Assembly: GCA_023955335.1 (NCBI GenBank)
Contig: JAGSGF010000001.1
Location: 124,001-188,000, forward strand
Source of the DNA: Yoonia sp.
GTDB taxonomy: Bacteria > Pseudomonadota > Alphaproteobacteria > Rhodobacterales > Rhodobacteraceae
Direction: 5' to 3'
DNA: 64,000 bases
The translations under genes were made by a program, and so were the position numbers. Positions 3,025 to 53,723 of the stretch are shown here, in pieces; positions within the stretch are counted from its first letter, which is position 1; every line of letters begins with the position of its first letter. The notes beneath the pieces were generated by a model, which had not been told where the DNA came from, ran no database searches, and saw nothing but the letters and a program-made list of their open reading frames with translations.

Positions 3025-3025
3025 G

Positions 3026-3409: not shown

Positions 3410-3434
3410 GAAAGGCGCAATTTTGCGCCCGCAC

Positions 3435-3570
3435 TAAGTGCTATATCTACGTTTTTTCAGTGGCTTACGCAGTATTTTGATCGTTGTCCCCCTGCGTTTC
3501 CCGCATTCATAGACTGGCCGAATTAACTCCGGTCAGACCTATAATGAGGAAAGCAGGGGCAGGCCGATTA
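3435..3570 (+). ncRNA. Candidate structured RNA downstream of zapA (6S RNA possible)
   Basis: Between the convergent zapA and grxD lies a long imperfect hairpin, 3489-3559. CCCCTGC with TTTCC pairs with GGAAAGCAGGGG, then CATT-ATAG with CTAT-AATG, then CTGGCC with GGTCAG. No U-tract follows, so it is not an ordinary terminator. In many proteobacteria the 6S RNA gene ssrS lies directly after zapA, which is why 6S is a candidate. I could not fold a convincing lower stem and central bubble, so the identity is open. Confidence 0.25.
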
Positions 3571-3930
3571 TTAACCGTTTGCTTCGCGGATTTTATCGGC
3601 GGCATCTTTGTCGAAGCCAACGCTATTTTCGGTGAAAAGCGTGTCCAGTTCGCCGGACAGCATCATTTCCGTGATGATATCGCAGCCGCCAATAAATTCG
3701 CCTTTGACATAAAGTTGTGGGACGGTTGGCCAGTCGGAATAGTCTTTGATGCCTTGGCGGATGTCATCGTCTGCCAGCACGTTCACGTCAGCAAATTCAA
3801 CGCCCATGAAGTTTAGCACGCCAGCCACGCGGGATGAGAACCCACATTGTGGCATGGATTTTGTACCCTTCATAAAGAGGACGACATCATTGGTCGTGAC
3901 GGTGTCTTTGATCTGTGTTTCTGCGGTCAT
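3571..3930 (-). CDS. grxD: Monothiol glutaredoxin, Grx4 family
   Basis: Monothiol glutaredoxins carry [2Fe-2S] clusters and work with BolA-type proteins in iron-sulfur trafficking and iron sensing. The 119-residue protein has the active-site motif CGFS (KSMPQCGFSSRV), the TVPQLYVKGEFIGGCDI cis-Pro and glutathione-binding region, and the usual length. I chose the ATG at 3930 because AAAGGA lies eight bases upstream. The next gene upstream on the same strand is a bolA-like gene, the classical functional partner, and both follow purL. Confidence 0.93.
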   Translation of the reverse strand: MTAETQIKDTVTTNDVVLFMKGTKSMPQCGFSSRVAGVLNFMGVEFADVNVLADDDIRQGIKDYSDWPTVPQLYVKGEFIGGCDIITEMMLSGELDTLFTENSVGFDKDAADKIREANG

Positions 3931-3978
3931 CGGGAAGGTCCTTTCGGGGGCCATTTTTGGTCAAAAATGGATGCGTTG

Positions 3979-4215
3979 TTATGAGGGGGCTTTGGTCGTG
4001 AGCGCCAATGCGTGAAGGTCGCCGTTGGAGCCGTCCATCTTACCCTTTAGGGCTGCATAAACAGACCGCTGCTGTTGCACGCGGTTTTTGCCTGCAAAGC
4101 TGGCGTCAATCACTTCGGCGGCGAAATGTGCGCCGTCGTCACCTTGCACAGTGATTTGCGCGTCAGGGAAGCCTTCGCGCAGCAGGGTTTCGATCTCGTG
4201 GGCCGTGATGGGCAT
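3979..4215 (-). CDS. BolA/IbaG family protein
   Basis: Small 78-residue BolA-fold protein, MPITAHEIETLLREGFPDAQ at the start and the conserved NRVQQQRSVYAALKGKM near the end. BolA proteins form [2Fe-2S]-bridged heterodimers with monothiol glutaredoxins such as the gene next to it (49 bases downstream). A good AAAAGGA site precedes the ATG. The open frame runs further upstream without homology, so the longer reading is rejected. Which BolA paralogue it is cannot be settled from sequence alone. Confidence 0.88.
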   Translation of the reverse strand: MPITAHEIETLLREGFPDAQITVQGDDGAHFAAEVIDASFAGKNRVQQQRSVYAALKGKMDGSNGDLHALALTTKAPS

Positions 4216-4277
4216 GGATGTATCCTTTTGGCTTTTGCTTAATCTAAGACCCGGCAGAGCAGGCGGCAAGGGGCGGA

Positions 4278-4304
4278 GCCTCCGGCGGGAGTATTTCGGA
4301 AAAA
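4278..4304 (-). repeat. Dispersed intergenic repeat, copy 1
   Basis: GCCTCCGGCGGGAGTATTT followed by CGGAAAAA lies 8 bases beyond the purL stop. A related copy, GCCTCCGGCGG-N2-ATATTT-N5-CGGAAAAA, lies beyond gpt at 34524. Both stand in the same orientation with respect to the preceding minus-strand gene, so this is a 3'-end repeat family. Confidence 0.45.
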
Positions 4305-4312
4305 GCGAGGCG

Positions 4313-6472
4313 TTAAGCGACCGCTGCTGCAAAGCTGGTGCGGAAGGTATTTGTGAGGTCAGCGAGGTCGTGGTTGTAGTTACCAAATGTGATTTGGGCG
4401 CCGCCGACTTTGCCGACCATCGCGATGGGTACATCCGCGTTGGCGGCTGTGATCATCAGGTCTTCGGCTTGGTCAAAGCTGCAGGCGATCAGATAGCGGG
4501 CTTGGTCTTCGCCAAATAGGGTGGGCGTGTCGTCAGCGTCGAGTGTGACGCCGATTTGCGCCTCTTCTGCCATCTCGAACGCTGCCAGAGCCAGCCCGCC
4601 GTCGGATAGGTCCGTGCAGGCGCGTATCATGGTGTGATTGGCGCGGATGAAGTCACCGTTGCGTTTCTCAGCGGCTAAATCGACGAAAGGTGCGTCGCCT
4701 TCGGCCCGTCCGTAGACTTCGGCAAGCAGCGCGGACTGCCCAAGGTGGCCATGCGTTTCGCCGACAACCAGCAGCACGTGACCTGCGCGGATTTGACCCG
4801 TGATCATATCGTCGGGGTGCATGATGATGCCGACGGCCCCAATGGTCGGGGTCGGCAGGATGCCTGTGCCGTCGGTTTCGTTATAAAGCGACACGTTGCC
4901 GGAAACGATCGGCATGTCGAGCGCTGCGACGGCTTGGCTGATCCCTTGGATCGCACCGACAAACTGGCCCATGATTTCGGGTTTTTCTGGATTGCCAAAG
5001 TTCATATTGTCTGTTGTTGCCAATGGCTTAGCGCCCACGGCTGTCAGATTTCTATAGGCTTCGGCAACGGCTTGCTTGCCGCCTTCAACAGGGTTGGCTT
5101 TAACGTAGCGCGGGGTCACATCGGATGTGAAAGCCAGCGATTTGTCGGTGCCGTGCACGCGCACAATGCCAGAGCCTGCGCCCGGTGTGCGGGCGGTGTC
5201 GCCCATGACTTGTTGGTCGTATTGTTCATACACCCACTGTTTGCCGGCATAGTTCGGGCTGGATAACAGCGCGCGCAACCCGTCGATTGGGTTAACGCCA
5301 ACGACATCTTCGAGCGGTGCGGGAGCCGGGGTTGGTACCCAGGGGCGGTCGTATTCCGGGGCGGAGCCTGACAGCGTGGCCAACGGCAGGTCAGCTTTGA
5401 CTTCGCCGTTGTGCAGCACCAGAAAGCGGTCTTCAGCGATGGTTTCGCCAACGATGGCAAAGTCGAGATCCCATTTGACAAATACGGCGCGCGCCTCGGC
5501 TTCGAGCTCTGGCTTGAGAACCATCAGCATGCGCTCTTGGGATTCAGAAAGCATCATTTCATAGGCGGTCATGTTTTCTTCGCGCTGTGGGACATCTTCG
5601 AGGTTGAGCTTGACGCCCAAGCCCCCCTTGTCGCCCATTTCAACGGCAGAGCAGGTCAGGCCAGCGGCCCCCATGTCTTGGATCGAGATCACGGCACCGG
5701 TTGCCATCAGCTCGAGCGTGGCTTCCATCAGGCGTTTTTCGGTGAATGGATCACCAACTTGTACGGTGGGGCGTTTGTCCTCGATTGTGTCGTCAAATTC
5801 GGCCGAGGCCATTGTCGCACCGCCGACGCCGTCACGACCCGTTTTTGCGCCAAGATAGACGACGGGCATACCAACGCCAGAAGCCGCAGAATAGAAGATT
5901 TTGTCAGTGTCCGCGATGCCAGCGGCAAATGCGTTCACAAGACAGTTGCCGTTATAGGCAGGGTCAAAGCGGACTTCGCCGCCGACCATAGGCACACCAA
6001 AGCAGTTGCCGTAGCCGCCAACGCCTGCGACGACGCCGTTGACCAGCTGGCGGGTTTTGTGGTGGCCGGGTTCGCCGAATGACAAGGAGTTCATCGCGGC
6101 GATGGGACGGGCACCCATTGTAAAGACGTCGCGCAAAATGCCGCCCACGCCCGTGGCTGCCCCTTGGTAGGGTTCGATATACGACGGGTGGTTGTGGCTT
6201 TCCATTTTGAAAACAACACATTGGCCATCGCCGATATCAACAATGCCAGCGTTTTCACCTGGTCCACAGATGACTTGAGGGCCCTCAGTCGGAAGCGTGC
6301 GCAGCCATTTCTTGGATGACTTGTAGGAGCAATGCTCGTTCCACATGGCAGAAAAGATGCCAAGTTCCGTAAATGTGGGCGTCCGTCCGATAATATCGAG
6401 GATGCGGTCATATTCGTCGGGCGACAGCCCATGTGAAGCAATCAGATCTGGTGTGATGGTTGGTTCGGTCAT
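4313..6472 (-). CDS. purL: Phosphoribosylformylglycinamidine synthase subunit PurL
   Basis: Fourth step of purine synthesis: converts FGAR, ATP and ammonia from PurQ into FGAM. At 719 residues it is the small PurL type that works with separate PurS and PurQ, neither of which is in the window. Visible family motifs are [52 protein letters not shown] and [19 protein letters not shown], covering two AIRS-related ATP-binding halves. The ATG at 6472 has AAAGGGG upstream; the longer frame to 6586 has no support. It is followed by the bolA-like gene and grxD. Confidence 0.97.
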
Positions 6473-41400: not shown

Positions 41401-42098
41401 AATACGAAGGCGGTCAGCTTGGTGAAATCTTTATCGATATGCACAAAGAGGGCGCTGGCTTTCGGGCGATGATGAACAACTTTGCAATCGCCGTGTCCGT
41501 GGGCCTGCAATACGGTGTGCCACTGGAAGAATTCGTTGATGCGTTCACATTCACCAAGTTCGAGCCGGCAGGCATGGTTCAGGGCAACGATAGCATTAAG
41601 AATGCAACGTCGATCCTTGATTACATCTTCCGCGAATTGGCCGTGTCCTATCTTGACCGCACCGATCTGGCCCACGTTAAGCCAGAAGGCGCAGCGTTCG
41701 ACGATATCGGCCGTGGCGAAATGGAGGGTGTGTCCAACGTGGCAACACCGTCCGAGGCCGCCGCGTCCAAGTCTTTGGAAGTGCTCCGCCAGATCAGCTC
41801 CACTGGGTACCTGCGCAAGCGGATGCCACAAGAGTTGGTCGTTCTGCAGGGCGGCCAAGCCACAGCGACGCTTGATGCTATTGTGGAGGCCACCCAAACA
41901 ATGGGCAATGTTGCAGTCACTGCGGAGACATCATTGTCCAGCGGCACCACAACAGCAGCCGGTTTCTCGGCCCGCGATAAGGCCAAGATGCAAGGCTACG
42001 AAGGCGATCCATGTGGCGAATGCGGCAACTACACGCTGGTCCGCAACGGGACTTGCATGAAGTGCAACACCTGCGGTAGCACCTCAGGCTGTAGCTAG
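38448..42098 (+). CDS. nrdJ: Vitamin B12-dependent (class II) ribonucleotide reductase
   Basis: Reduces ribonucleotides to deoxyribonucleotides using adenosylcobalamin, independent of oxygen. The 1216-residue protein is the long NrdJ type: [54 protein letters not shown] with an active-site Cys, [20 protein letters not shown], and a C-terminal cysteine-rich tail ([20 protein letters not shown], then CGSTSGCS) that acts in thiol relay or metal binding. It stands alone with a long upstream region. Its oxygen independence suits the anoxia-type genes that follow. Confidence 0.97.
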
Positions 42099-42130
42099 AA
42101 GGATTGAGAGGTGTTGTCCCTGCGGGCATA

Positions 42131-42195
42131 GTTCCTCCCAATTTCGGCAAAGGTTCTCCCATCTGGGGGTAAAGTTTCTCCCAATCGGGTGAAAC
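42131..42195. repeat. Three imperfect tandem copies of a 21-23-base unit
   Basis: Between nrdJ and the next terminator the unit GTTCCTCCCAATTTCGGCAAAG recurs as GTTCTCCCATCTGGGGGTAAA and GTTTCTCCCAATCGGGTGAAAC. On the minus strand the shared core is TGGGAGRAAC. About two helical turns per unit would suit a multi-site protein-binding array; it may also be a chance decay product in the nrdJ 3' region. The rest of 42099-42473 holds a long-range pair GATCAGGC/GCCTGATC and a terminator. Confidence 0.4.
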
Positions 42196-42302
42196 ACTAT
42201 AGAAACAAGGATCCGGGGCGGGTGCGCTCGCCCTCGGTGCAGATCAGGCCACAGGCAAAAAACACGAGCGGTATAATCACGAGCCTGATCAGCAAAACTA
42301 AC

Positions 42303-42328
42303 GGGGTCCCTTCGGGGGCCCCTTTTTT
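42303..42328 (+). terminator. Rho-independent terminator downstream of nrdJ
   Basis: GGGGTCCC, TTCG tetraloop, GGGGCCCC, then TTTTTT. It lies 205 bases after nrdJ, so it may end the nrdJ mRNA or a small RNA transcribed from its 3' region. Confidence 0.88.
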
Positions 42329-42473
42329 GTAAAACTGGATTACTTGTAGGGGCTCAGGTCAGGTCGAAAGCATTGGGGGCGTCAAGGCCAGCCGTGGTTT
42401 ATGCCCATGCGCAAAACTTGGTGATCGGCCCAAAAATGCGGCTAGCAGCCAATACCCAAATCCTGCCGATGAA

Positions 42474-42487
42474 TTGACGCGGATCAA
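42474..42487. promoter_or_regulatory. FNR/Dnr-type box upstream of the phasin gene
   Basis: TTGACGCGGATCAA fits TTGAY-N4-RTCAA of CRP/FNR-family anaerobic regulators, 63-76 bases before the phasin ATG. One of a set found only in the 42-51 kb block. Confidence 0.6.
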
Positions 42488-42549
42488 TCCAGACTAATTC
42501 AAAGATGCGAGAGATGGAGACTATGCAACTCAACGCAAAGGAATCAGTC

Positions 42550-42942
42550 ATGACCAAAGAGACTCAAAGCGGAAAAAGCAATTCCGAGACCTCTAAGACT
42601 TCGGGTTTCGATCCGACGGAGATGTTTCAGAGTTTTATGTCAAAATTTGCTGAAGCGTCGGACTCCGACAGTAATCCCGCTGCTGGCTGGATGGAATTGA
42701 ATCAACATTGGATGAACTTTCTTGGTGACCGGTTCAAGCAAGACACCGCGTTGCTTCAGAAGCTCAGCAAATGCACAGATCCGGCGGAAATGACTGCGGC
42801 TCATACAGAGTTCTACAAGGAGACTGTTGAAGACTATCAGCGTGAATTTGCAGAAATGACCAAGCTTGGCCAGCAGGCCATTGGACAACTGTCAAAGACC
42901 GCCAAATCGGCCGCCGAAAAGATGCAGGCCAAGAAGGGCTAA
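42550..42942 (+). CDS. Phasin family protein
   Basis: Phasins coat polyhydroxyalkanoate granules. The 130-residue protein is hydrophilic and helical with FDPTEMFQSFMSKFAEASDS, a middle WMELNQHWMNFLGDRFKQD and the phasin-like FYKETVEDYQREFAEMTKLG ending in an Ala/Lys-rich tail (SKTAKSAAEKMQAKKG). I chose the ATG at 42550 because AAAGGA lies seven bases upstream; three earlier in-frame ATGs lack this. Followed by an SDR remnant and a thiolase, which is PHB-pathway context. Confidence 0.8.
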   Translation: MTKETQSGKSNSETSKTSGFDPTEMFQSFMSKFAEASDSDSNPAAGWMELNQHWMNFLGDRFKQDTALLQKLSKCTDPAEMTAAHTEFYKETVEDYQREFAEMTKLGQQAIGQLSKTAKSAAEKMQAKKG

Positions 42943-43029
42943 GACGGGGAACGTCACATTTACCCAAAGACCAAGAGATCGCCGTCTTTGGCGGTCCAAA
43001 CTTTTGTGTGCGGCAAGGTGCCAATCGAT

Positions 43030-43233
43030 ATGGTCTTGCGTCGCTTAACGACGGCGCAAGATGCCCAGACCAAGCAGCGCAACGGGAGCCAGGCGAAGGA
43101 TCTGAAAGACAGGGCAATCGTCATAACCGGCGCGGCCCAAGGGGTGGGTCAGGAGAGCGCCACCGAGATCGCATTGCAGGGTGCAAAGCTGGCTTTGGGC
43201 GATCAGGCCATGATTTCGTCACTTAACAACTAA
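43030..43233 (+). pseudogene. Remnant of a short-chain dehydrogenase (phaB-like)
   Basis: A 67-residue reading frame whose middle, LKDRAIVITGAAQGVGQESA followed by TEIALQGAKLALGD, is the N-terminal NAD(P)-binding beta-alpha-beta of an SDR with the TGxxxGxG motif. It stops soon after, where a full SDR would run another 200 residues. The first about 25 residues have no SDR similarity. Lying between a phasin gene and a thiolase, it may be what remains of an acetoacetyl-CoA reductase (PhaB). That assignment is inference; the SDR motif itself is visible. Confidence 0.6.
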
Positions 43234-43253
43234 AACAGTAAGGAGCGACACCA

Positions 43254-44441
43254 ATGCAACTTCATGAAGTGGTTCTGTGCAACCCTGTCCGCACTGCGAT
43301 CGGCACTTACGGCGGCAGCCTGAAAACTGTCCCTGCAACAGACCTTGGCGCGGCCGCGATCAAAGGCGTGCTGATGCAATCAAAACTTGAAGGCGCGGAC
43401 GTGGACAGTGTCTTTATGGGGAATGTGGTGCAGGCTGGTAATAAGATGAACCCAGCCCGACAATGTGCCATCAATGCAGGTGTTCCTGTTACTGTTCCCG
43501 CCATGACCGTTAATCGTGTCTGCGGTTCTGGTGCGCAAGCTGTCGTGTCGGCCGCTCAGGAAATTATGGCTGGCATGTTGGACTGTGCGGTCGCTGGTGG
43601 CACGGAAAACATGGATTTGGCACCTTATCTTGCAGCCGGCGGACGCTGGGGCTACCGGATGGGTGACGCGCAGCTCTATGATAGCATGTTGCGCGATGGT
43701 CTAAACGATGCGTTCTCTGGTGAACATTCCGGCTGGCACACCGAAGACCTCGTGAAGGCCCTCCAGATTACCCGCGAAGATCAGGATCGTTGGGCCGAAC
43801 GGTCGCAGAGGCGGTTTTCGGATGCGCAGGCAGCAGGCAAGTTCAACGATGAAATCATCTCTGTCGAGGTTCCTGGTCGCAAAGGCGCGACCAAGTTTCA
43901 AAAAGACGAACAAAACCGGTCTGATACCACAATGGAAAGCCTTGGCAGACTAAGACCCGCTTTCCGTAAGGACGGTACCATAACTGCGGGCAATGCACCC
44001 GGACTAAACAGCGGTGCAGCGGCGATGATCATGGCCGAACGGGGCTGGGCTGAAAAACACCAGCTAGAACCGATGGCGCGGCTGGTGTCCTACGGGATCG
44101 GCGCGGTGGAGCCGGGTATGTTTGGTCTGGGTCCAATTCCCACAGTGAAACAAGCACTTGAACGGGCCAACTGGACGCGCGGGGATGTCGACCGTATCGA
44201 GATCAACGAGGCGTTTGCCGCTATCGCCATCGCCGTCACGCGTGAGCTGCAGTTGGCAGATGACATCGTGAATGTTGACGGCGGTGCCATTGCACATGGG
44301 CACCCGATTGGCGCAACCGGAGCGGTGCTTACGACGCGCCTTTTGCATGCGATGAAGCGCGACGGTCTTAAGCGTGGAGTCGTCACGCTGTGCATCGGAG
44401 GCGGTCAGGGGATCGCGCTAGCACTGGAGATATTGCACTGA
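43254..44441 (+). CDS. Acetyl-CoA C-acetyltransferase (thiolase)
   Basis: Condenses two acetyl-CoA to acetoacetyl-CoA, the first PHB step, or runs in reverse in degradation. The 395-residue thiolase has the nucleophile Cys90 in MTVNRVCGSGAQAVVSA, His350 in GHPIGATGAVL and Cys380 in TLCIGGGQG, all intact. The segment GEHSGWHTEDLVKALQITRE differs from the common GHMG-TAEN form, so it is a somewhat divergent member. It follows the SDR remnant by 20 bases and is convergent with the fusion gene. Confidence 0.93.
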   Translation: MQLHEVVLCNPVRTAIGTYGGSLKTVPATDLGAAAIKGVLMQSKLEGADVDSVFMGNVVQAGNKMNPARQCAINAGVPVTVPAMTVNRVCGSGAQAVVSAAQEIMAGMLDCAVAGGTENMDLAPYLAAGGRWGYRMGDAQLYDSMLRDGLNDAFSGEHSGWHTEDLVKALQITREDQDRWAERSQRRFSDAQAAGKFNDEIISVEVPGRKGATKFQKDEQNRSDTTMESLGRLRPAFRKDGTITAGNAPGLNSGAAAMIMAERGWAEKHQLEPMARLVSYGIGAVEPGMFGLGPIPTVKQALERANWTRGDVDRIEINEAFAAIAIAVTRELQLADDIVNVDGGAIAHGHPIGATGAVLTTRLLHAMKRDGLKRGVVTLCIGGGQGIALALEILH

Positions 44442-44562
44442 GTTCCAGCAATCCTCGTCGCGTGGAATGCTATTTTCACAACAAGACGTTGCAACGCGCC
44501 TGATACCTGTATCCGGTCGTTTGGATGTGCCCGATCCCTCATAAAATTTGCGACAGACCCTA

Positions 44563-47214
44563 TCAAAGTCCGAAAGGATAGGTTTCGTCCTCGCCTTTGG
44601 CGGCTCGGGTCTCCAACGGTGTCACTGCATTGGTCTTATCAAACCAGACAAATGCGTCATACTGATCGGCGAGGTTTGCAGGGCTGTAGTGGCTCGCCCT
44701 TTCGCTTTCGGGCCGGTAGATGACACCGATATAGCGTTCCAGTCGTGGCTGCGCCAAGACACGCCGAAGGGCGTCGTTGTCTGGCTTACGAAAATCGAAC
44801 AGGAACCGCTCCAGATTTACGGCGTGGCACAAGGCTTCATAGCTGTCAGGCCGCGGCGGGCGCACCGTCTTGATCTCCATCGGCGCGTCCCATTCAGACG
44901 CAGCGGCAACCGTCCCGGACGCGGTGCCAAAACCGATCAACGCAGCGTCATCGCCATATTCCTCGCGGCAAAGCTGGCCGATATTCAATTCACCACGTGT
45001 GCGGCCCATGTCGGTAAAGCGGGCGTCGCCAATATGCGAATTATGCGCCCATACGACGACCTTTTTGTCTGGCCCCGCGTGATCTGTTATTTGCTTGAGG
45101 GTGTCGAACATATGCTGGTCGCGCAAATTCCAAGACACATGCGATCCGTAATACATCGCGCGATAGTACCGTTCCGCATTTGCCACGAGCCGTGCATTCT
45201 GCGCCGCGTCAAAGAACTGATCACCGTCTTTCTTGGTGTACGCCATTTCTTTCTTGAGCAGGTTCACAAGAATGCTGGTGACAGGTGCTTCGCAGATCGC
45301 AAATCCATGCGTCAGCGCCGCCCGACCGTATGCCGCAGGCTCGCGCGACCATGGCGATAGGCAGGCATACCGTTTTCGGGCAACCTCAGCCGCCGCGGAA
45401 TCCACCCCGTCGAGGTAGGCCAGTACAGCGGCGATGGAGGCATTCATATTATAGAGGTCGAGGCCATAAAATCCGACCTGTTCCTCCTGTGTCTTGCGTC
45501 CATTGTGTTGGCGCAGAAAATCCGTGAAGGCTTCGACGTCCACGTTGCGCCACATCCACGTGGGAAAGCGTGCAAAGGGCGGTGTTTTCATCGGACGCTG
45601 CGGTCTGTGCCGCGTATGGCGGTCGACCGCTGCGGCATCGGGCCAGTCTGCTTCGACAGCAACACTCGAAAACCCGTGTTCTTCGATGAGTCTACGGGTG
45701 ATTGCTGCGCGCGCTTGGTAAAACTCCGATGTCCCGTGGGACGCTTCGCCAAGAAGAACCACGCGGTGCGATCCAAACCGGTCAAATGCTTTTGCAAACT
45801 CGGGGTCATTGATAGCGGGAAGCGGCTCTGCCGCAGCCCGCGGGACGTCGATATCCGGGATTGGGGCAGGGGGCCGGACGGGGGATGAATTGTGCGAGAC
45901 AAGGTGTTGGTCGAACCAGTTCGCTGCATGCGCAATGGCAGCATCCAGTGTTCCCGGTTCCTCGAATAAATGGCCTGCGCCAGAGACGATTTGTAATTTC
46001 TTTTTGCAGGTCATGGCACCCAGCGCTGTTTCGTTCAGGTCAATCACGTCAAGATCAAGGCTGCCAACAATCAGGAGCGTTGGGGCCAAAACAGAGGGCA
46101 ATGACCGTCCAGCCAGATCAGGACGACCGCCCCGAGAGACAACTGCCGCGACCCGCCCCTTGAGGTCTGCCGCCGCCGTAAGCGCGGCACCTGCGCCAGT
46201 ACTCGCTCCGAATATCCCAAGCGGCAGATCGGCAATGTCAGGCTCCGAGCTGATCCACATGCATGCCTCGACAACACGTTCCGCCAACAGCGGTATATCG
46301 AAGACATTGCGCCGGTTGTGTCCCTCGGCAGGTGTCAGCAGATCAAAAAGAAGGGTCGCAAAGCCTTTTTCATTGAGCTTGGAGGCCACAAATGTGTTGC
46401 GCGGGCTGCGACGACTGGATCCGCTGCCATGCGCAAAAAGAACAATGCCGCGGGGGTTTTTAGGTACAACCAAATCGCCAACCAACCCGAGCGGCGGAAT
46501 TTCAACCTGCCGCATATCGGGATTGCCAGCTTGAGAGAGTGGCGTTTCCGGCTCTTGCACCGACCAACGCTGGTTAAGCAGTGAGATTGTCTCTTCATCG
46601 GATAATTGATGGAAGTCGCGGTAGAATCCACCGACCCCGCGAAACTCTGTGGCGGGGTGAAGACAAACAATATCATCTGCCTGATCGGCCAATTCCTCCA
46701 ACGCCCGCATTGGCGCAACGGGCAGGGCGACCACGATCCGCGCAGCCTTATTACGTTTCAGAGCGATAAGTGCGGCCTTCATGGTGGCACCGGTTGCAAG
46801 CCCGTCGTCGACAACCACGACAGTTCGGCCCGCAGGTTTCAGCCGGGGTCGGTCGCCAAGATACCGTATTCTTCTGCGTTCAAGCTCGTCCAACTGTTCA
46901 GCATAGGCGCGTTCCAAATAGTCCATATCCGCGCCGGACATCCGTTTCACATCCTCGTTGATGACAACTTGCGCATTGGCGCCCTCGACAATCGCACCAA
47001 GAGCAACTTCGGGATTTCCCGGCGCGCCGATCTTGCGCACCAGTACAAGATCAAGCGGGGCGTTCAACTCACGCGCCACTTCAGTTGCGACAGGAACACC
47101 ACCGCGCGGGAGGGCGTAGATGAGCGGTTGATCCAAACCCATCGCCAACAGCCTTCTGGCCAGTTGCACGCCAGCTTCGGTTCTGTCCAAGAATCTGTAA
47201 ATGAAATCAGTCAT
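44563..47214 (-). CDS. Three-domain fusion: phosphoribosyltransferase, dienelactone-hydrolase-like, erythromycin esterase
   Basis: 883 residues in three parts. Residues 1-215 are a type I phosphoribosyltransferase with the PRPP loop VVVVDDGLATGATMKAALIA (132-151). Residues about 235-440 are an alpha/beta hydrolase with Ser338 in GIFGASTGAGAAL, Asp in IVGSLDLDV and His415 in SGAGHLFEEPG. Residues about 465-875 are an erythromycin-esterase-type domain with LLGEASHGTSEFYQ (Glu490, His493), EADWPDAAAVDR and WAHNSHIGDARF. The catalytic residues look intact in all three. Mycobacterial Rv2030c joins the first and last domains; the three-part form adds a hydrolase. The substrate is unknown. An FNR-like near match lies at -34. 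Confidence 0.9.
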   Translation of the reverse strand: MTDFIYRFLDRTEAGVQLARRLLAMGLDQPLIYALPRGGVPVATEVARELNAPLDLVLVRKIGAPGNPEVALGAIVEGANAQVVINEDVKRMSGADMDYLERAYAEQLDELERRRIRYLGDRPRLKPAGRTVVVVDDGLATGATMKAALIALKRNKAARIVVALPVAPMRALEELADQADDIVCLHPATEFRGVGGFYRDFHQLSDEETISLLNQRWSVQEPETPLSQAGNPDMRQVEIPPLGLVGDLVVPKNPRGIVLFAHGSGSSRRSPRNTFVASKLNEKGFATLLFDLLTPAEGHNRRNVFDIPLLAERVVEACMWISSEPDIADLPLGIFGASTGAGAALTAAADLKGRVAAVVSRGGRPDLAGRSLPSVLAPTLLIVGSLDLDVIDLNETALGAMTCKKKLQIVSGAGHLFEEPGTLDAAIAHAANWFDQHLVSHNSSPVRPPAPIPDIDVPRAAAEPLPAINDPEFAKAFDRFGSHRVVLLGEASHGTSEFYQARAAITRRLIEEHGFSSVAVEADWPDAAAVDRHTRHRPQRPMKTPPFARFPTWMWRNVDVEAFTDFLRQHNGRKTQEEQVGFYGLDLYNMNASIAAVLAYLDGVDSAAAEVARKRYACLSPWSREPAAYGRAALTHGFAICEAPVTSILVNLLKKEMAYTKKDGDQFFDAAQNARLVANAERYYRAMYYGSHVSWNLRDQHMFDTLKQITDHAGPDKKVVVWAHNSHIGDARFTDMGRTRGELNIGQLCREEYGDDAALIGFGTASGTVAAASEWDAPMEIKTVRPPRPDSYEALCHAVNLERFLFDFRKPDNDALRRVLAQPRLERYIGVIYRPESERASHYSPANLADQYDAFVWFDKTNAVTPLETRAAKGEDETYPFGL

Positions 47215-47247
47215 AAAATGACGTTAGCCGCAGCGCCCAGCAGCAGA

Positions 47248-47261
47248 TTGATAAAACTCAA
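47248..47261. promoter_or_regulatory. FNR-like near match upstream of the fusion gene
   Basis: TTGATAAAACTCAA matches TTGAT-N4-ATCAA with one mismatch, 34-47 bases before the fusion gene start on the minus strand, a good activator position. Confidence 0.4.
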
Positions 47262-47508
47262 ATCGGTTCACAATTTCGACGGAACCCGCGTGGCAGTTTC
47301 TTATGACACCAGACCCGCTGCACCTTGAACACAGCGCTGACGCAGATCATGCCAAAGCGGCATTGTTGCCTGTAAGCTGATAGGGTGCTGTCCGCGTGCG
47401 TATCGGGTTCGTGAAAAACTTTTTGCCGACCTGTCGCGTCAGGTTGACCACGCAGATCCGCAGCCATTGGCGTAAACGCGCCATACTCGGCGGGAAAAAG
47501 TCTGCCGT

Positions 47509-47522
47509 TTGATTTTGGTCAA
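47509..47522. promoter_or_regulatory. FNR/Dnr-type box before the 84-residue gene
   Basis: TTGATTTTGGTCAA, 74-87 bases before the ATG at 47596, fits TTGAY-N4-RTCAA. The 380-base intergenic region 47215-47595 otherwise shows nothing recognisable. Confidence 0.6.
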
Positions 47523-47595
47523 TCGCGTATGCGGACAATTTGCGATCCTGTAGACTAACGTGAAATCTGCTTCACAATTGGATGGGGGATGAGAA

Positions 47596-47850
47596 ATGAA
47601 CGCGAAAACGAGAGTCCAGATTGACAAATTTACATCCGGTCAAGCGATTGCAACGGCGCGGCCGATTGCCCGTCCCAATGCGCTGCCACACCCGTTGCGA
47701 CAGCACATTAACGCGCTTGGAGTAATGCCAAAGACCAGTTTGGAAGTCTTTGCTGATCTGGGCCTCTCGGATGGTGACATTGCGCGTTATTTCGAGGTGC
47801 CATTAACCTGCATCACAAAGCTTCGCGAAATCTGGGACATTCACTGTTGA
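47596..47850 (+). CDS. Small HTH-like protein, unknown
   Basis: The 84-residue protein has a basic, flexible N-terminus and a C-terminal half, DLGLSDGDIARYFEVPLTCI followed by TKLREIW, that reads like a helix-turn-helix of the kind that recognises DNA. No signal peptide or membrane segment. GGGGGA precedes the ATG. With an FNR-type box upstream and stress genes around it, it may be a small regulator; function is not known. Confidence 0.7.
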   Translation: MNAKTRVQIDKFTSGQAIATARPIARPNALPHPLRQHINALGVMPKTSLEVFADLGLSDGDIARYFEVPLTCITKLREIWDIHC

Positions 47851-47901
47851 TGCCATTTTTCGACACGTGAATGCCGTGGCCGAACGCTGGATCTGGATGG
47901 G

Positions 47902-48429
47902 TTATTTGACCGTAACGACGGTTTGTGCCGCATGGTGCAACACTTTCTGCGACACGCTTCCCAAAACAGCCTCTCTGATTTTTCCCAACCCGCGCGAACC
48001 AATCACGATCATATCGGCCTTTTGCTTTTTGGCAGTTTTAAGGATTTCATCAGCATAGTCGCCAGACCGCACAGACGTCGTAACGTTTTGTGCGCCCAGT
48101 TCCTCGCTCCGGCTCTTTGCAAAAGCGGCCAATTGATCGCCAATGGCAGGTATAATCCGCGCGCCTTGATCGGTGGTCCCGCTGTCCTTTAGAAGGCTGT
48201 ACATCTGGCCCGGGGCATATGCGACACTGGGCGAAAAGGTGTTTTGTGCCTGGTCAACGATATGTTCGGCCTCTGCCATTCGCACCAGCTCCTTGGATGG
48301 GCGCCCGTGCATCAGGACATGGACGATAGACAGGTCGGCTTCAAGTTTGCACGACAGCTCGGCTGCTAGGTCCAAAGCTCGGCGCGCATTATTTGACCCA
48401 TCGTAGGCCAGAAGGATTTTACCAATCAT
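47902..48429 (-). CDS. Universal stress protein (UspA family)
   Basis: The 175-residue single-domain Usp starts KILLAYDGSNNARRALDLAA and ends with the ATP-binding motif VIGSRGLGKIREAVLGSVSQ (G-2x-G-9x-G-S). Members of this group respond to starvation and low oxygen. It is convergent with the 84-residue gene, and a FNR-type box lies 63-76 bases before its start. Confidence 0.94.
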   Translation of the reverse strand: MIGKILLAYDGSNNARRALDLAAELSCKLEADLSIVHVLMHGRPSKELVRMAEAEHIVDQAQNTFSPSVAYAPGQMYSLLKDSGTTDQGARIIPAIGDQLAAFAKSRSEELGAQNVTTSVRSGDYADEILKTAKKQKADMIVIGSRGLGKIREAVLGSVSQKVLHHAAQTVVTVK

Positions 48430-48491
48430 GATCGTACTCCTTGGCGTGATTGTTTCTACGGTGGGGCTATCACTCTTGTACCCAACTCCGG

Positions 48492-48505
48492 TTGACGCAG
48501 ATCAA
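48492..48505. promoter_or_regulatory. FNR/Dnr-type box upstream of the universal stress gene
   Basis: TTGACGCAGATCAA, 63-76 bases upstream of the usp start on the minus strand. Same spacing as at the phasin gene. Confidence 0.6.
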
Positions 48506-48615
48506 TTCTGAATTCTCAGTACGGTCAGTGCCGGGAAGCCAGCAGCAACGCGATATGTGCGGACAATGGCCAGTTTAGGTCACTGCTTTCATTGCAACAG
48601 TAAAACAACCGATGA

Positions 48616-48629
48616 TTGATCAGAATCAA
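48616..48629. promoter_or_regulatory. FNR-type box upstream of the BON gene
   Basis: TTGATCAGAATCAA is an exact TTGAT-N4-ATCAA, 153-166 bases before the BON-protein ATG. The usp-BON divergent region (48430-48781) thus holds two boxes, one for each direction. Confidence 0.65.
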
Positions 48630-48781
48630 TCTGAATGTCCGAAAAACGCGTAGGTGTCGCGGAGGCGTCCGGGATACTGCTGCGCGCCCGCCACTGAATT
48701 TCGCCTCTGGGAACAGGTATGATCGCAGGGAACCAACTTCTAAAATTGCAGCGCGAGCCGCTCAAATAAATGGAGACGAAA

Positions 48782-49429
48782 ATGATGACCGACCATCAAG
48801 TGAAAGAGGACGTGACTGCCGAGCTGGACTGGGAGCCAAGCATTGAGGCCGACCATATTGGTGTCGCTGTTGAGGGTGGCGTTGTAACGTTGACCGGGCA
48901 TGTCGACAGCTACTGGAAAAAATCCGCAGCGGAGCGTGCTGTGGGCCGGGTCAATGGCGTCAAGGGCCTTGCTGAAGAGCTTGAAGTCCGGCTTCCCGGT
49001 CATATGAGAAAAGCTGACGACGAGATCGCAAAAGCTGCGCTGAGCCGCTTGTCTTGGGACAGTGCTATTCCAACGGACTCCATCAAGGTAAAGGTTCAAA
49101 AGGGTTGGGTGACGCTCACAGGGGAGGTCGAATGGCATTTCCAGAAGGACTCAGCGGAGCGGGAAATTCGGCCACTGATGGGCGTCACATCAGTTTCCAA
49201 CAACGTGACCGTCAAGGCGCGTCCCGATACCGCCAAGATTAGCGCAGATGTCAGTCGCGCGCTGCACCGGACGCGATTCACCGATGAAAATGTAAAGGTT
49301 ACGGCAGTCGACGGGATGGTTCGCCTGACGGGCCATGTCCCGACGTGGTCTGATCGCGGGCTTGCCTACAGAACGGCTTGGGCGGCACCTGGAGTTACGT
49401 CTGTCCAGAACGATATCAGCGTCGCCTGA
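48782..49429 (+). CDS. Triple BON-domain protein
   Basis: The 215-residue protein is built of three BON domains, each with the Gly-rich turn: VAVEGGVVTLTGHVDSYWKK, VKVQKGWVTLTGEVEWHFQK and VTAVDGMVRLTGHVPTWSD. It lacks a signal peptide, so it acts in the cytoplasm, unlike OsmY, which is periplasmic. BON domains bind lipid or other surfaces and are stress-associated. The ATG at 48782 with GGAG upstream is preferred to one four codons earlier. Confidence 0.92.
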   Translation: MMTDHQVKEDVTAELDWEPSIEADHIGVAVEGGVVTLTGHVDSYWKKSAAERAVGRVNGVKGLAEELEVRLPGHMRKADDEIAKAALSRLSWDSAIPTDSIKVKVQKGWVTLTGEVEWHFQKDSAEREIRPLMGVTSVSNNVTVKARPDTAKISADVSRALHRTRFTDENVKVTAVDGMVRLTGHVPTWSDRGLAYRTAWAAPGVTSVQNDISVA

Positions 49430-50123
49430 TGACTTGCCGAGTGCCGTTCCCCCCCGGTACTCGGCAGCTTTCTCGGTCGCGCACTCCCTGCGCGGCCGAG
49501 ATATTGCGCACCGGGTCATTTTAACATCGCGCAGAACGGGGGCGCAAAACTCGAAAATGTGAATGAGGCGAGCAAGACCCGTGGGCTGCGATCCGCGCTG
49601 AGCGTGTCCCGCTCGGCCTTTGATGCGGCAACGACGAAAGCACAGGCCGCCTTCAAGGATGCAATAAAAAACGATGAAAAGGCGACCTGATTGGTGGCCT
49701 CATGGCCCTGATTATGGGGGCGTGTTTTTAAAAACAAGAGGTTCCCTTTGGAAATGAACATGCAATGCCGTGCTGGACTGGCTTAAAGCCGGCGGCCTTT
49801 GGCGAGGCCTATCTGGATTGCCTGCTACATCTGTCGACATCGCCGGATAAGCAATTTTGGCTTTCGGACAAGGCGTTTCGCCCCGGCCATGATGTGGGGA
49901 CAACTCCATGGTCACATAGCGGGTTGATCAAGGGTATCGGGATCTATTGGCTTTTTTTGGCATAACCCCGATGCTAAAGACCGCGATACAAGCATGGACA
50001 ATGACAGAAAAATGGGCGTCATGGCGGTGATCAGCGCCGTAAAAAGTGCCTTGGCGCCACGTTGCTGCCGATTGCTGCCGCCACTATTGGCTGGAGGGGC
50101 AATGACCCGTTCGCATCACAAAG
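49430..50123 (+). other. Degraded region between BON and MBL genes
   Basis: About 690 bases with no intact gene. A GC-rich hairpin (49435-49466, TGCCGAGTGCC with GGTACTCGGCA) may end the BON transcript. From about 49521 to 49690 a coding-like frame without start reads SRSAFDAATTKAQAAFKDAI and stops at KNDEKAT; it looks like the tail of a lost helical protein, possibly phasin-like. Then comes a PHA-synthase-like remnant (separate entry). Past 49966 nothing is recognisable. Confidence 0.5.
49783..49965 (+). pseudogene. Fragment resembling the N-terminus of PHA synthase
   Basis: The frame AFGEAYLDCLLHLSTSPDKQ, followed by FWLSDKAFR, resembles the PhaC N-terminal pattern (aYlDWl-HLa-SPGKq--LaeKAfR). 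After RPGHDVGTTP the similarity fades and a stop follows. It has no convincing start. With phasin, SDR remnant and thiolase nearby, the best reading is a relic of phaC. Identification is from memory of the family pattern and is moderate. Confidence 0.4.
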
Positions 50124-51044
50124 CTATTCCCATTCCATCTGTTCATAAGTTGTTTGGGCGTTGCGCCCGGCAAGGCTGTCGAATTGCTCAAGATAAGCAA
50201 ACGCGGATTGGTCGATCTTTGGGGCGTCCATGATGTCGCCACCATCTGCGATCAACGCCTCTATCTGCGTGCGCAGGTTGACCAGATAGTCATAGGTGTC
50301 AGTCGTGGCTGTTGCCAGCGTTGTGGCATGCCCGTGACCCGGCACGACATGCGCTGGGGTTAACGCGGCCATTGCTTCGAACACGTCTATCCAGCTTTTG
50401 GCATTCGACTGCTGGCCATTACCAAGGATACGTTCGACATAAACGATGTCGCCGGTGAACACCGTGTCCTTTGCCGGTAACCAGACAAAGCTGTCGCCGG
50501 GGGTGTGCGCCTGTCCTGCGTGTGTGATCTCAAATGTGAGCCCGCCGAGGTCCAGCGTATAATTATCCACAAAGGAAATATCGGCATAGGCGGGCGTGGT
50601 GCCAGATAACTGATCGCCCAATAACTGGGACAGTGCGCTAAGCTGTTGCGACCCGCGTGCCTTGTGGTCTTCAATGGCGGCTTGCGACGCGATGACCGTG
50701 GCACCTTGGGACTGCCAATAGCCATTGCCCAGCCAGCGGTGATCCTGCCCGCCTGTGTTGACGACATATTTAACGGGTTGATCTGTGATCTCACGGATGC
50801 GTGTATGGATCGCTTCGGCACCTTTCCAGCTTCCGCCAGGGTCCATCAAAACAACACCTTCATCGGTGACAACAACGCCAAATGTTGCATTGTTGGCAAG
50901 ATTTTCTGGTGAACGCTGTTGCTTGGGCCCGACGAGAGCATAGACGCCATCGGTGACGGTTTGGACCTCGAACATGTCCGCCAGCGCGCCAGTTGCTGCG
51001 AGAACGAAGGCACCTGCCGCCCCAAAACTCATGAAAAAACTCAT
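50124..51044 (-). CDS. Exported metallo-beta-lactamase-fold protein with altered metal site
   Basis: The 306-residue protein has a signal peptide (MSFFMSFGAAGAFVLAATGALA) and an MBL fold: GVVVTDEGVVLMDPGGSWKG, then VVNTGGQDHRWLGNGYWQSQ in the place of the HxHxDH motif, HAGQAHTPGDSFVWLP, FTGDIVY and PGHGH. In the first motif two His are replaced by Gly and Gln while Asp-His remain, so one zinc site is probably incomplete. The ATG at 51044 has GGTGG upstream; a GTG at 51056 is the alternative. An FNR-type box lies about 94-107 bases upstream. Confidence 0.88.
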   Translation of the reverse strand: MSFFMSFGAAGAFVLAATGALADMFEVQTVTDGVYALVGPKQQRSPENLANNATFGVVVTDEGVVLMDPGGSWKGAEAIHTRIREITDQPVKYVVNTGGQDHRWLGNGYWQSQGATVIASQAAIEDHKARGSQQLSALSQLLGDQLSGTTPAYADISFVDNYTLDLGGLTFEITHAGQAHTPGDSFVWLPAKDTVFTGDIVYVERILGNGQQSNAKSWIDVFEAMAALTPAHVVPGHGHATTLATATTDTYDYLVNLRTQIEALIADGGDIMDAPKIDQSAFAYLEQFDSLAGRNAQTTYEQMEWE

Positions 51045-51137
51045 CTTATCAACCACCCTTCAATCTTGGTCCCCTTCGGGACACATAGAACGCCCATTCA
51101 TTTCCACGTTACCTTATGAAACCCGACACGCAGCGCA

Positions 51138-51151
51138 TTGATTTCGATCAA
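51138..51151. promoter_or_regulatory. FNR-type box upstream of the MBL gene
   Basis: TTGATTTCGATCAA is an exact TTGAT-N4-ATCAA, 94-107 bases before the MBL start on the minus strand. It could also serve a lost plus-strand gene. Confidence 0.6.
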
Positions 51152-52130
51152 AGAAATTCAGTTTGTGGTGATGGCATGGCCAACTTCTTTGGGGGCGTTG
51201 TAGGCATCTGCCGTGTGATTGAGACGGACATCGCGACCAAGATCGGTAAACGCGCGTTTGGGCGGCGTCTTATAATTTGGTCGCCAGCGCGCTGTCCCGG
51301 GTGCCCACAGCGTGCTTTGATCTGGTCACGCCAGCGCCCTTTCACCGGTCAGCGCAGATTAAGTGCGCGAGCGAAATTTATGATGCGCAGCCGGGTGTCG
51401 GCGCGTCTGGCCGCTTGCTACGGGCCGACGCACTTTGGCTGGGGGCGGGCGCGCAGAGCCCTGCTGCTGTGACTGAGCAGCTGCGGATGGATTTAGAGGG
51501 CATCGCGCCAAAATCTGGTGGCGATGCGGTCGCCGTTGGCGCGCCACTTGCTGGATTGTCGCAATGGCTGAAAATACAATTGGCATGATTGGCAATGGAC
51601 CACTTTCGAGGCCCAGCTGGGTGATCCGGACAGGGCTCGCCTTGGTGCACGAAAACGAATTCGTGTACCCGGCCGCTGGCAACACGGTAGAGGCAAAACG
51701 CACGGTGTAGGTTTTCTGTCCAGTCCGGATTAAAATCCGAACGGCTAGTCCGGAGCGCGACCAGTCCCAAAAGCGGAAATCGTCGGGTGCGATGGGCTTG
51801 CCACAGCACAGGTGATCGGACCCGACCAATCCAAAGAGGGGTCATTATGTCTAATGAGGTCCAAATCCCTTTGACGATCGATCCGTCGGGGCTTTTGCGT
51901 GTTCCAGTTGTCTGTCTCACTGTCCACTCCTCAGTGGTTACGATGGGCCGACAACACAAATTGCCCTAAATGGACCCGCAGGCGCTAGCGTCAGACAGAT
52001 GTCGTCTTAACGGGCATTTATAACCGCAACACCAGACTTGAGCCGCACGCAAAACACCGCGCGGTATAAGAGACGCGGCTACCAAGCGAAACATTAAGGG
52101 CCCCCTTTGTGCGGAGAAAGGGGGCAGGGC
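51152..52130. other. Gene-poor, apparently degraded stretch
   Basis: Almost 1 kb without a recognisable gene. A plus-strand frame 51250-51588, ending in APLAGLSQWLKIQLA, looks coding in composition but has no family match I know and no good start; it could be the tail of a decayed gene. A short frame at 51847-51969 (MSNEVQIPLTIDPSGLLRVP) has a possible start but no known relative. CGGATT-AA-AATCCG forms a small hairpin near 51726. I see no transposase. Confidence 0.5.
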
Positions 52131-53723
52131 CTAGCCGTTCAGGATCAGATCTGACGCCTTTTCCCCGATCATGATCGCGGGGGCGTTGGTGTTACCTGAC
52201 ACGATTTCGGGCATGATCGAACAATCTGCAACCCTCAGACCCGCGATGCCGTGTACCCGCAGTTGATCATCAACCACTGCGGTTTTGTCATGGCCCATCT
52301 TGCAGGTACCTGTTGGGTGATAGATCGATGCGGTGTTGTTGCGTGCCCAATCAAGCGTCTCATCATAGTTATTGATGTCCAAGTCGGGGTTCGGACGGTG
52401 TTCAGCGGAAATTTTTGACGTGAGCGGTGCGTGCTGCGCAATACGGCGCGCAATATTCACACCAGCAACGACGGTCCGGCAGTCGGTTTCGGTCGACAGG
52501 TAATTCGGAATGATCTTGGGATAGGCGCGGCCTTCACTGCTGGTCAACCTGATTTCACCCTTCGATTCGGGCCGGAGCTGGCATACCGACGTTGTAAACG
52601 CCGAGAATTTGTCAGCCCCTTTGCCCGGATTTTCGGCTGACAAAGGTTGGACATGGAATTGGATGTCCGGTGTTTCCAGATCATCGCGGGTTTTAATAAA
52701 CCCTGTCGCGAGGCTGGCGGCCATCGTCATCGGACCAGAGCGGAACATCAGGTATTTGAGGCCGATCTTGGCTTGGCCAAACATGCTGCCGACTTCATCG
52801 TTCAACGTTGGCTCATGGGTTTTGTAAACCAAGCGGGCTTGCAGGTGATCTTGCATATTTTTGCCCACACCGGGCAAGTCAGCGATCACCTCAATACCGT
52901 GTTCACGCAATTGATCCGCTTCGCCAATACCAGACAGCATCAAAAGCTGCGGCGAGTTGATTGAGCCGCCGGACAAGATAACTTCGCGATTTGCAGTGAC
53001 GGTCTGAATTTTGCCTGATCTGTCTTTGTAGGTAACACCTGTGGCACGCTTATCTTTGATGACGACTTTTTCGACCTGCGCATGGGTGATGATCGTCAGG
53101 TTGTCGCGGCTTTTCACGGGGTTCAGGTAGGCAACGGCCGACGAACAGCGGCGTCCATTCTTGGCAGTTAGCTGAAAGAAACCAACACCTTCTTGGTCGG
53201 CGCCGTTATAGTCTGGGTTGAATTTGTATCCGGCACCCTGAGCGGCTGCGACCCATGCGTCCGTAATCGGGCGTTGAATGCGCATATTAGACACCGACAG
53301 CGGCCCCGCGTCTCCGTGGAATTCATCGGCGCCACGTTCGTTCTTTTCAGACCGCTTAAACAAAGGCAGGACGTCGTCCCATGCCCATCCGCGATTGCCC
53401 ATTTGGGCCCAGCGGTCATAGTCTTGAGGCTGTCCACGCACATAAAGAAGTCCGTTGAGCGATGATGACCCACCCAGAACCTTGCCGCGCGGCCATTCAA
53501 TAGAGCGGCCATTCAGACCCGGATCGGGCTCTGTTTTATAACACCAGTCAACGTTGGGGTTATGGATGGTTTTGAAATAACCCACGGGAATATGAATCCA
53601 CGGGTTCAAGTCTCGACCACCTGCCTCGAGCAAGATCACCTTATTCGAGGGGTCCGCGCTAAGCCGGTTTGCCAGAACACAGCCCGCTGAACCCGCGCCT
53701 ACAATAATATAATCTGCCTGCAT
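52131..53723 (-). CDS. GMC-family FAD alcohol/choline-type dehydrogenase
   Basis: The 530-residue flavoprotein has the FAD motif DYIIVGAGSAGCVLANRLSA, the GMC signatures EWPRGKVLGGSSSLNGLLYV and GGSINSPQLLMLSGIG, and the active-site His in IYHPTGTCKMG. It oxidises a hydroxyl group; BetA (choline) is the best-known relative, but the substrate here is not fixed. GGGGG lies before the ATG at 53723. Divergent from the TRAP genes, so the transporter probably imports its substrate (inference). Confidence 0.92.
   Translation of the reverse strand: MQADYIIVGAGSAGCVLANRLSADPSNKVILLEAGGRDLNPWIHIPVGYFKTIHNPNVDWCYKTEPDPGLNGRSIEWPRGKVLGGSSSLNGLLYVRGQPQDYDRWAQMGNRGWAWDDVLPLFKRSEKNERGADEFHGDAGPLSVSNMRIQRPITDAWVAAAQGAGYKFNPDYNGADQEGVGFFQLTAKNGRRCSSAVAYLNPVKSRDNLTIITHAQVEKVVIKDKRATGVTYKDRSGKIQTVTANREVILSGGSINSPQLLMLSGIGEADQLREHGIEVIADLPGVGKNMQDHLQARLVYKTHEPTLNDEVGSMFGQAKIGLKYLMFRSGPMTMAASLATGFIKTRDDLETPDIQFHVQPLSAENPGKGADKFSAFTTSVCQLRPESKGEIRLTSSEGRAYPKIIPNYLSTETDCRTVVAGVNIARRIAQHAPLTSKISAEHRPNPDLDINNYDETLDWARNNTASIYHPTGTCKMGHDKTAVVDDQLRVHGIAGLRVADCSIMPEIVSGNTNAPAIMIGEKASDLILNG

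Follow-up and report, generated by a model that had tools for sequence, protein, structure and literature searches.

The described systems closest to the locus analysed here are the FNR, FixK and DNR regulons of alphaproteobacteria (PMC2908626, PMC5398030, PMC7713065) and the lxa locus of Burkholderia cenocepacia (PMC6127331), each compared on the part of the paper that was available. The locus, referred to as the island, occupies positions 42474 to 51151 of a stretch of 64,000 nucleotides from Yoonia sp. (Rhodobacteraceae; assembly GCA_023955335.1, contig JAGSGF010000001.1, positions 124,001 to 188,000), the whole of which is called the window. It is very probably a low-oxygen survival island of an FNR-superfamily regulon, for which we infer activation at low oxygen, the acting regulator and a role in survival. 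Directly observed are the sites, their clustering and intergenic position, a phasing that recurs in relatives, a minus-10 spacing found genome-wide and the regulator genes.

The alphaproteobacterial regulons use the same type of site as the island and, as here, FnrL and FixK-type regulators; their targets, so far as the excerpts go, include Usp, cbb3, Hsp20, CBS, P-type ATPase and cytochrome c genes, all of which are met again below. Neither the fusion of phosphoribosyltransferase (PRT), hydrolase and esterase nor the protein of 84 amino acids (aa) encoded in the island is named in the accessible portions of their regulon lists, which include hypothetical proteins, and no paper on either gene under FNR control was found in the open-access literature searched. 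A stress gene likewise standing behind an anaerobox is the FnrN-dependent small heat-shock gene of Rhizobium leguminosarum, the reporter of which, in the portion of the report at hand, showed about 50-fold higher activity in microaerobic cells (PMC11784457); that case differs in being a single gene with another product.

The nearest list of gene contents, on the part of the source available, is that of lxa (PMC6127331). In common with the island and the other clusters described below, lxa has Usp, Hsp20, PfkB and cytochrome c genes, a BON protein (there of 23.5 kDa) and a protein of the metallo-beta-lactamase (MBL) superfamily (there of 51 kDa), and it includes an acetoacetyl-CoA reductase. 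It is one locus of 50 genes, whereas in the present draft assembly the like genes are spread over C59, C68, C30 and C43 and do not form one contiguous low-oxygen locus, the C30 cluster lying mid-contig. Table 2 of the lxa paper, covering about 19 of the 50 genes, names no PRT-esterase fusion and includes several uncharacterised proteins.

A third comparison concerns the mycobacterial Rv2028c-Rv2031c, a hypoxia-induced operon described, in the section consulted, as containing the PRT-erythromycin-esterase protein Rv2030c, Usp, alpha-crystallin and a PfkB-type kinase (PMC4410610). A preliminary description of the window, made from its sequence alone, had drawn a parallel with the DosR regulon. 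As a likeness of content the parallel stands, a protein with PRT and erythromycin-esterase domains and Usp being common to both, while the regulator and the box differ. No match to the DosR box motif within one mismatch was present in the window, and the box showed no excess over shuffles in an actinobacterial locus with a related fusion (L103); DosR-type control was rejected. The comparison of lxa with DosR is already in print, as the accessible text of that paper shows (PMC6127331).

Clustered FNR-type sites in the window and the genome

Five exact matches to TTGAY-N4-RTCAA and a near match had been reported in the preliminary description, each upstream of a different transcription unit. Every coordinate was confirmed, the near match having one mismatch, and the five exact matches are all that the window holds:

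42474..42487, plus strand: FNR/FixK-type site of the phasin gene, exact; centre 69.5 bp before the likely ATG at 42550
47248..47261, minus strand: near-match FNR/FixK-type site of the fusion; centre 40.5 bp before the ATG, minus-10-like TAACGT at +28.5
47509..47522, plus strand: site of the 84-aa gene, exact; starts 87 bp before the ATG
48492..48505, minus strand: site of the universal stress protein gene (usp), exact; begins 76 bp before the ATG
48616..48629, plus strand: site of the BON gene, exact
51138..51151, minus strand: site of the MBL gene, exact; minus-10-like TAAGGT at +28.5

In 100 dinucleotide shuffles of the window, exact sites numbered 0.34 on average and 2 at most, and none reached five. 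With up to one mismatch allowed, the window contains 16 matches (expected 8.2, standard deviation 2.9), a count as high being seen in one shuffle of 100. All six named sites are intergenic and the remaining ten lie inside open reading frames (ORFs), which were picked by length at 100 aa or more, a limit below which the 84-aa gene falls. The further claim that no such site precedes housekeeping genes holds at up to one mismatch, the only stringency scored. In having sites upstream of genes beyond chance, the window resembles an FNR/FixK-type regulon. An Rfam scan of 42000-52200 gave nothing at gathering score.

The genes of the island are as follows:

42550..42942, plus strand: phasin (Phasin_2), Pfam PF09361 at 8.6e-10, scored on the longer ORF from 42505; the start was picked by eye from a Shine-Dalgarno-like AAGGA
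42988..43233, plus strand: short-chain dehydrogenase fragment, probably decayed, PF00106 at 4.5e-4, below the cut-off and matching profile positions 2-31 of 195 only
43254..44441, plus strand: thiolase (acetyl-CoA acetyltransferase / BktB-like), PF00108/PF02803, TIGR01930 at 433 bits (cut-off 240.6)
44563..47214, minus strand: three-domain fusion of PRT, alpha/beta hydrolase and an erythromycin-esterase-like domain, by Pfam, the hydrolase match being just under the cut-off
47596..47850, plus strand: 84-aa helix-turn-helix (HTH)-like protein of no known family, without Pfam or NCBIfam match; best PHROGs E-value 0.43
47902..48429, minus strand: universal stress protein, PF00582 at 1.2e-28
48770..49429, plus strand: protein with three BON domains, OsmY-like, PF04972 at 4e-48 in three stretches, OsmY model at 86.8 bits, below the cut-off of 174; the start may be 48782
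49732..49962, plus strand: stop-bounded remnant matching the N-terminal part of polyhydroxybutyrate (PHB) polymerase over residues 15-40, PF12551 at 5.8e-5 and 23.3 bits, just below the cut-off of 25
50124..51056, minus strand: MBL-fold protein, doubtful member, PF00753 at 2.1e-17, TIGR04559 at 170 bits, below the cut-off of 280

The genome is a draft of 3.03 Mb in 83 contigs and 95% complete. It contains 51 exact sites, compared with 5 for the reversed pattern. Scaled to 3.03 Mb, the rate in the window shuffles corresponds to about 16 sites, so that between one tenth and one third of the 51 could be due to chance; a considerable share of the isolated sites fall within ORFs and may be of this kind. 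The preliminary description had proposed a comparison with the genome background, and the density in the island is not that of the background: when 51 sites were placed uniformly, five or more fell within 8.69 kb in 0.07% of 20,000 simulations (P 0.0007).

The island is nevertheless one of several site-dense loci and not unique, since C30 has six sites in 8.69 kb and C43 and C68 have four each. The other site loci were examined as 24 stretches, with part of their genes named by Pfam. The C68 cluster includes Hsp20, DUF2267, CBS, a beta-CASP MBL protein, a lysine-decarboxylase-like protein and a LonB-like protease, together with a Usp 48% identical to that of the window. A PEP-synthase-like protein, PfkB and DUF4386 are encoded in the C30 cluster, along with transport genes read by eye. 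In C43, a cation P-type ATPase, a DksA-like protein, an MBL protein, a Na/Ca exchanger and cytochrome c were named, with Usp matches as well. On C54 (46859-47365; L033, about 2718-4664, minus strand), a polyhydroxyalkanoate (PHA) synthase gene has an exact site upstream and a TAGAAT at class II spacing, which may place storage-polymer synthesis outside the island under the same control. Taken together, the contents of C68, C30, C43 and C54 show that survival, protein-quality and storage-polymer genes recur near the motif. The survival and storage content noted for the island is thus borne out at other loci, but the island is not its sole bearer.

Promoters in relatives and their geometry

The fusion was scanned for in named genomes, giving at least 80 loci with 1.48 Mb of DNA. 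These hold 67 exact sites, compared with 1 for the reversed control, 8 for a spacer of N3, 1 each for N5 and N2, and 8 for N6. Usable promoters, defined by a match beginning within the first nine residues and at least 310 bases upstream, came from 34 of the 80 loci; of those dropped, L078 was too short, while the others either begin within the gene or cover only its later domains. Within 300 bp, an exact site was present in 14 of the 34 and a site with up to one mismatch in 23, against 1, 1 and 0 for three control patterns at the same stringency. In half of the promoters (17/34), such a site stands 45-50 bp before the start. The near match of the window, at 47 bp, lies at the position orthologous to these, and this speaks for a genuine site despite the mismatch.

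Phasing recurs at two further genes. Upstream of the 84-aa gene, an exact site is found 82-90 bp before the assigned start in six of 15 distinct homologues, besides the window itself (a truncated copy, L041, was left out, and the start codon closest to the start of the query was taken in each case). At the usp loci of the family, 9 of 29 have an exact site and 13 a site within one mismatch, with controls giving no exact and at most one near match; seven of the nine exact sites lie 67-75 bp before the start, compared with 76 bp in the window. An exact site also precedes 4 of 21 phasin genes of the family, all of them distant homologues, the other eight of the 29 loci giving no local match. The phasin of Sphingopyxis is placed, in the available text, in a category that is not counted as directly controlled by Fnr (PMC7713065). 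Across many relatives, but not all, the site is conserved at the orthologous promoters of the fusion, the 84-aa gene and usp; conservation is partial for phasin and BON and was not found for MBL.

Part of the sites also share a promoter geometry. Among the 50 of the 51 genome sites whose places are known, 16 have a TANNNT hexamer 27.5-29.5 bp from the site centre, on either side, compared with 3.5% of 5000 random positions, and in 13 of the 16 the distance is exactly 28.5 bp. This distance fits a site near -41.5 and class II activation by FNR. In Dinoroseobacter shibae the site centres lie 39.5-41.5 bp before the transcription start (PMC5398030), and the Fnr boxes of Sphingopyxis are centred mostly at -40.5 to -42.5 (PMC7713065), both as given in the portions consulted. 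For the fusion, 23 of 35 promoters were selected for having a phased site with no more than two mismatches, one being that of the window and the others coming from 22 relatives; the hexamer stands at 28.5 or 29.5 bp in 11 of the 23, and the start codon 38.5-42.5 bp from the site centre. With such a distance between site and ATG, transcription would start at about the ATG, and the fusion mRNA is predicted to be leaderless. A Shine-Dalgarno match of at least five bases occurs in none of the 23, compared with 37 of 212 ORFs in a crude background that includes wrong starts.

Several observations weigh against the proposed regulon. No site within one mismatch is present in 11 of the 34 fusion promoters of relatives, and the relatives are not independent samples. 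In a family-wide draw of 29 fusion homologues, mostly single domains, one has an exact site and six a site within one mismatch; of the four full-length fusions in that draw, L041 has the phased site and L042-L044 do not. Nine of the 15 homologues of the 84-aa gene are without an exact site in 250 bp. The closest usp homologue (L235, 60%) has no exact site either. The BON homologues have an exact site in one case of three and two mismatches in the other two. In the window itself, a TANNNT at class II spacing accompanies two of the six sites, those of the fusion and MBL, and is missing at the phasin, 84-aa gene, usp and BON sites. Finally, none of 29 MBL homologue promoters has a site within one mismatch, including none of the 14 closest (about 55-81% identity). 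As for the comparison with relatives proposed in the preliminary description, many of them have phased sites at the fusion, the 84-aa gene and usp, and others do not.

The MBL result bears on the extent of the regulon. Membership of the MBL gene in the island, as originally described, was not upheld as far as a conserved member is meant. That only a core is regulated, comprising the fusion, the 84-aa gene, usp and probably BON and phasin, with the MBL site being incidental or a recent gain, has about an even chance of being correct; the homologue promoters speak for it, and against it stands the site of the window, which is perfect and has TAAGGT at class II spacing. The protein itself appears, from a match below the TIGR04559 cut-off, to be related to quinoprotein-relay hydrolases.

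The gene nrdJ, adjoining the island, had been linked to it as well, a link that was abandoned. It has no site within one mismatch upstream, and a terminator-like hairpin (42303-42322) follows it, although the region has hardly more such hairpins than its shuffles do (13 vs 12.4). The 95%-complete genome yielded no small subunit of a class I reductase, so nrdJ probably serves as the ordinary reductase, and it was rejected as a regulon member. In Sphingopyxis, by contrast, the class II reductase gene nrdZ has an Fnr box, according to the available part of the report (PMC7713065).

Regulators and alternative explanations

The HTH_Crp_2 model was passed by four proteins of the genome, and the narrower Crp model by three of these. 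The C43 regulator is FnrL (NCBIfam 366 bits, cut-off 300), with an N-terminal cysteine cluster in its sequence; its gene stands next to a Usp match and cbb3 oxidase genes, the latter read by eye. The regulators of C68 and C38 are without this cluster and score best as FixK at 148-149 bits, below the cut-off of 300. Regulators cognate to an FNR/FixK-type regulon are therefore encoded, FnrL above its cut-off and the two FixK-like proteins below. On the 12.2-kb contig C38 (L039), the FixK-like gene adjoins a response regulator, a histidine-kinase-like gene and Usp-like genes, as judged by eye, and the contig has no exact site.

Because FNR, FixK and DNR recognise very similar sites, as the accessible part of PMC2908626 states, sequence alone cannot assign the regulator of the island. 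A FixK-like protein under a two-component system may govern it, oxygen or redox state being sensed through the kinase, with FnrL serving mainly the cbb3 genes; we hold this to be a serious possibility, if somewhat short of even. It draws on the two FixK-like scores, on the genomic settings of these regulators, one being part of the C68 cluster that includes Usp, Hsp20 and CBS and the other having a response regulator and Usp-like genes as neighbours, and on the grouping of Hsp20 and CBS genes with FixK in the pages available of Dufour et al. (PMC2908626). However, FnrL is present too, and its targets in D. shibae include usp genes in the excerpt consulted (PMC5398030); the similar sites do not decide for FixK, and the best PDB structure match of all three regulators, FnrL included, is FixK2.

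Control by nitric oxide through a DNR-type heme regulator, with the island as a denitrification or nitric-oxide-stress response, is improbable. DNR does recognise a very similar site, and a UspA gene is grouped with DNR in the part of PMC2908626 at hand, but the best NCBIfam models are FnrL and FixK and no DNR model matched, a weak argument since the library may hold none. The label 'Dnr-type' given to the island is accordingly not established. The view that the sites are chance matches or relics, a base-composition effect in AT-richer spacers, is very improbable, since the scaled shuffle count and the many genome sites inside ORFs are outweighed by the phasing in relatives, the minus-10 spacing and the 23 of 34 fusion promoters with a site, compared with 0 or 1 for controls.

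A low-oxygen FNR-superfamily regulon is thus the preferred reading. When oxygen falls, FnrL, of the Fe-S type, and/or a FixK-like regulator would bind the TTGAY-N4-RTCAA sites and activate separate short transcription units, some of them at least from class II promoters with the site near -41.5. The products would be Usp, the BON-domain protein, phasin and thiolase for PHB granules, the PRT-hydrolase-esterase and the small HTH-like protein, and the fusion transcript would begin at about the ATG without a leader. Of the FNR/Dnr regulon of survival genes first described, the cluster of FNR-superfamily sites, phased in relatives, is retained, and MBL, nrdJ and 'Dnr' are not.

The fusion, the 84-aa protein and the spread of the island

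The fusion proteins, 33 with that of the window, retain a loose PRPP-type motif throughout (33/33; the strict pattern in 13/33), and 32 of the 33 have a GxSxG-type motif and likewise the esterase motif GE-x-[ST]-HG-xx-E. Judged by these motifs, all three domains look functional. Eight of the 80 loci have the 84-aa gene beside the fusion, and two of these eight also have usp adjoining the 84-aa gene; three Hsp20 matches follow the fusion in 7 of the 80. Among 198 genomes of the family, each from another genus, some match to the fusion occurs in 45 and a match of nearly whole length in only 5, the window's included; the 84-aa gene is present in 7, and the BON protein has matches in 14, near full length in 4 including that of the window. 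The island is accessory.

In a tree of 33 fusion rows the orders are mixed. Rhodobacterales needs four label changes, L093 (Mesorhizobium huakuii) groups with L082 (Rhodobacteraceae UBA6141) of a different order with high support, and one group joins an Acetobacterales row to two Rhodobacterales rows. Such mixing suggests transfer. Nearly full-length fusion homologues with 43-46% identity were also seen outside the alphaproteobacteria, in a Solirubrobacteraceae metagenome-assembled genome (L103) and in Legionella brunensis (L104); the locus DNA examined for these two has no exact FNR-type site.

Homologues of the 84-aa protein keep a C-terminal DLGLSDxEIARYFxIP stretch. Its model from a nine-row alignment has four helices (mean pLDDT 69.8), the single-sequence model being poor (57.6). 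At E <= 10 Foldseek gave 144 PDB matches, of which none reached E <= 0.001; carbamoyl phosphate synthetase takes the first two places among the 50 matches listed, and HTH proteins (LuxR-type, sigma region 4) are numerous among the others, which gives no more than a hint. From its HTH look, a DNA-binding role may be guessed. A second, divergent HTH-like copy lies within the site-dense C30 cluster of the same genome (43156-43365; L157) and has no exact site within 250 bp upstream.

The fragments at 42988-43233, between phasin and thiolase, and at 49732-49962, between BON and MBL, are probably decayed genes, both matches being below the Pfam cut-off. With a dehydrogenase and a PHB polymerase among its remnants, the island may have contained a more complete PHB operon in the past.

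A joint reading can be put forward speculatively and is unlikely as a whole: the fusion and the 84-aa protein would together be central to a hypoxia module of alphaproteobacteria that carries phased FNR sites and has moved from one order to another, with a leaderless fusion mRNA and the 84-aa protein as a second-tier DNA-binding regulator of the island. If it were true, the leaderless mRNA would be translated without dependence on a Shine-Dalgarno sequence in starved, oxygen-limited cells. New relative to the known FNR/FixK systems are the prediction of a leaderless fusion promoter and the small 84-aa protein family. The phasing of the promoters ties an uncharacterised enzyme fusion, two domains of which co-occur in a protein of a mycobacterial dormancy operon, and an unannotated family of small proteins to low-oxygen control. 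The bacteria concerned include culturable species, in a family that is largely marine, and unrelated regulators standing over similar sets of survival genes in different phyla would make the roles of these genes testable outside pathogens.

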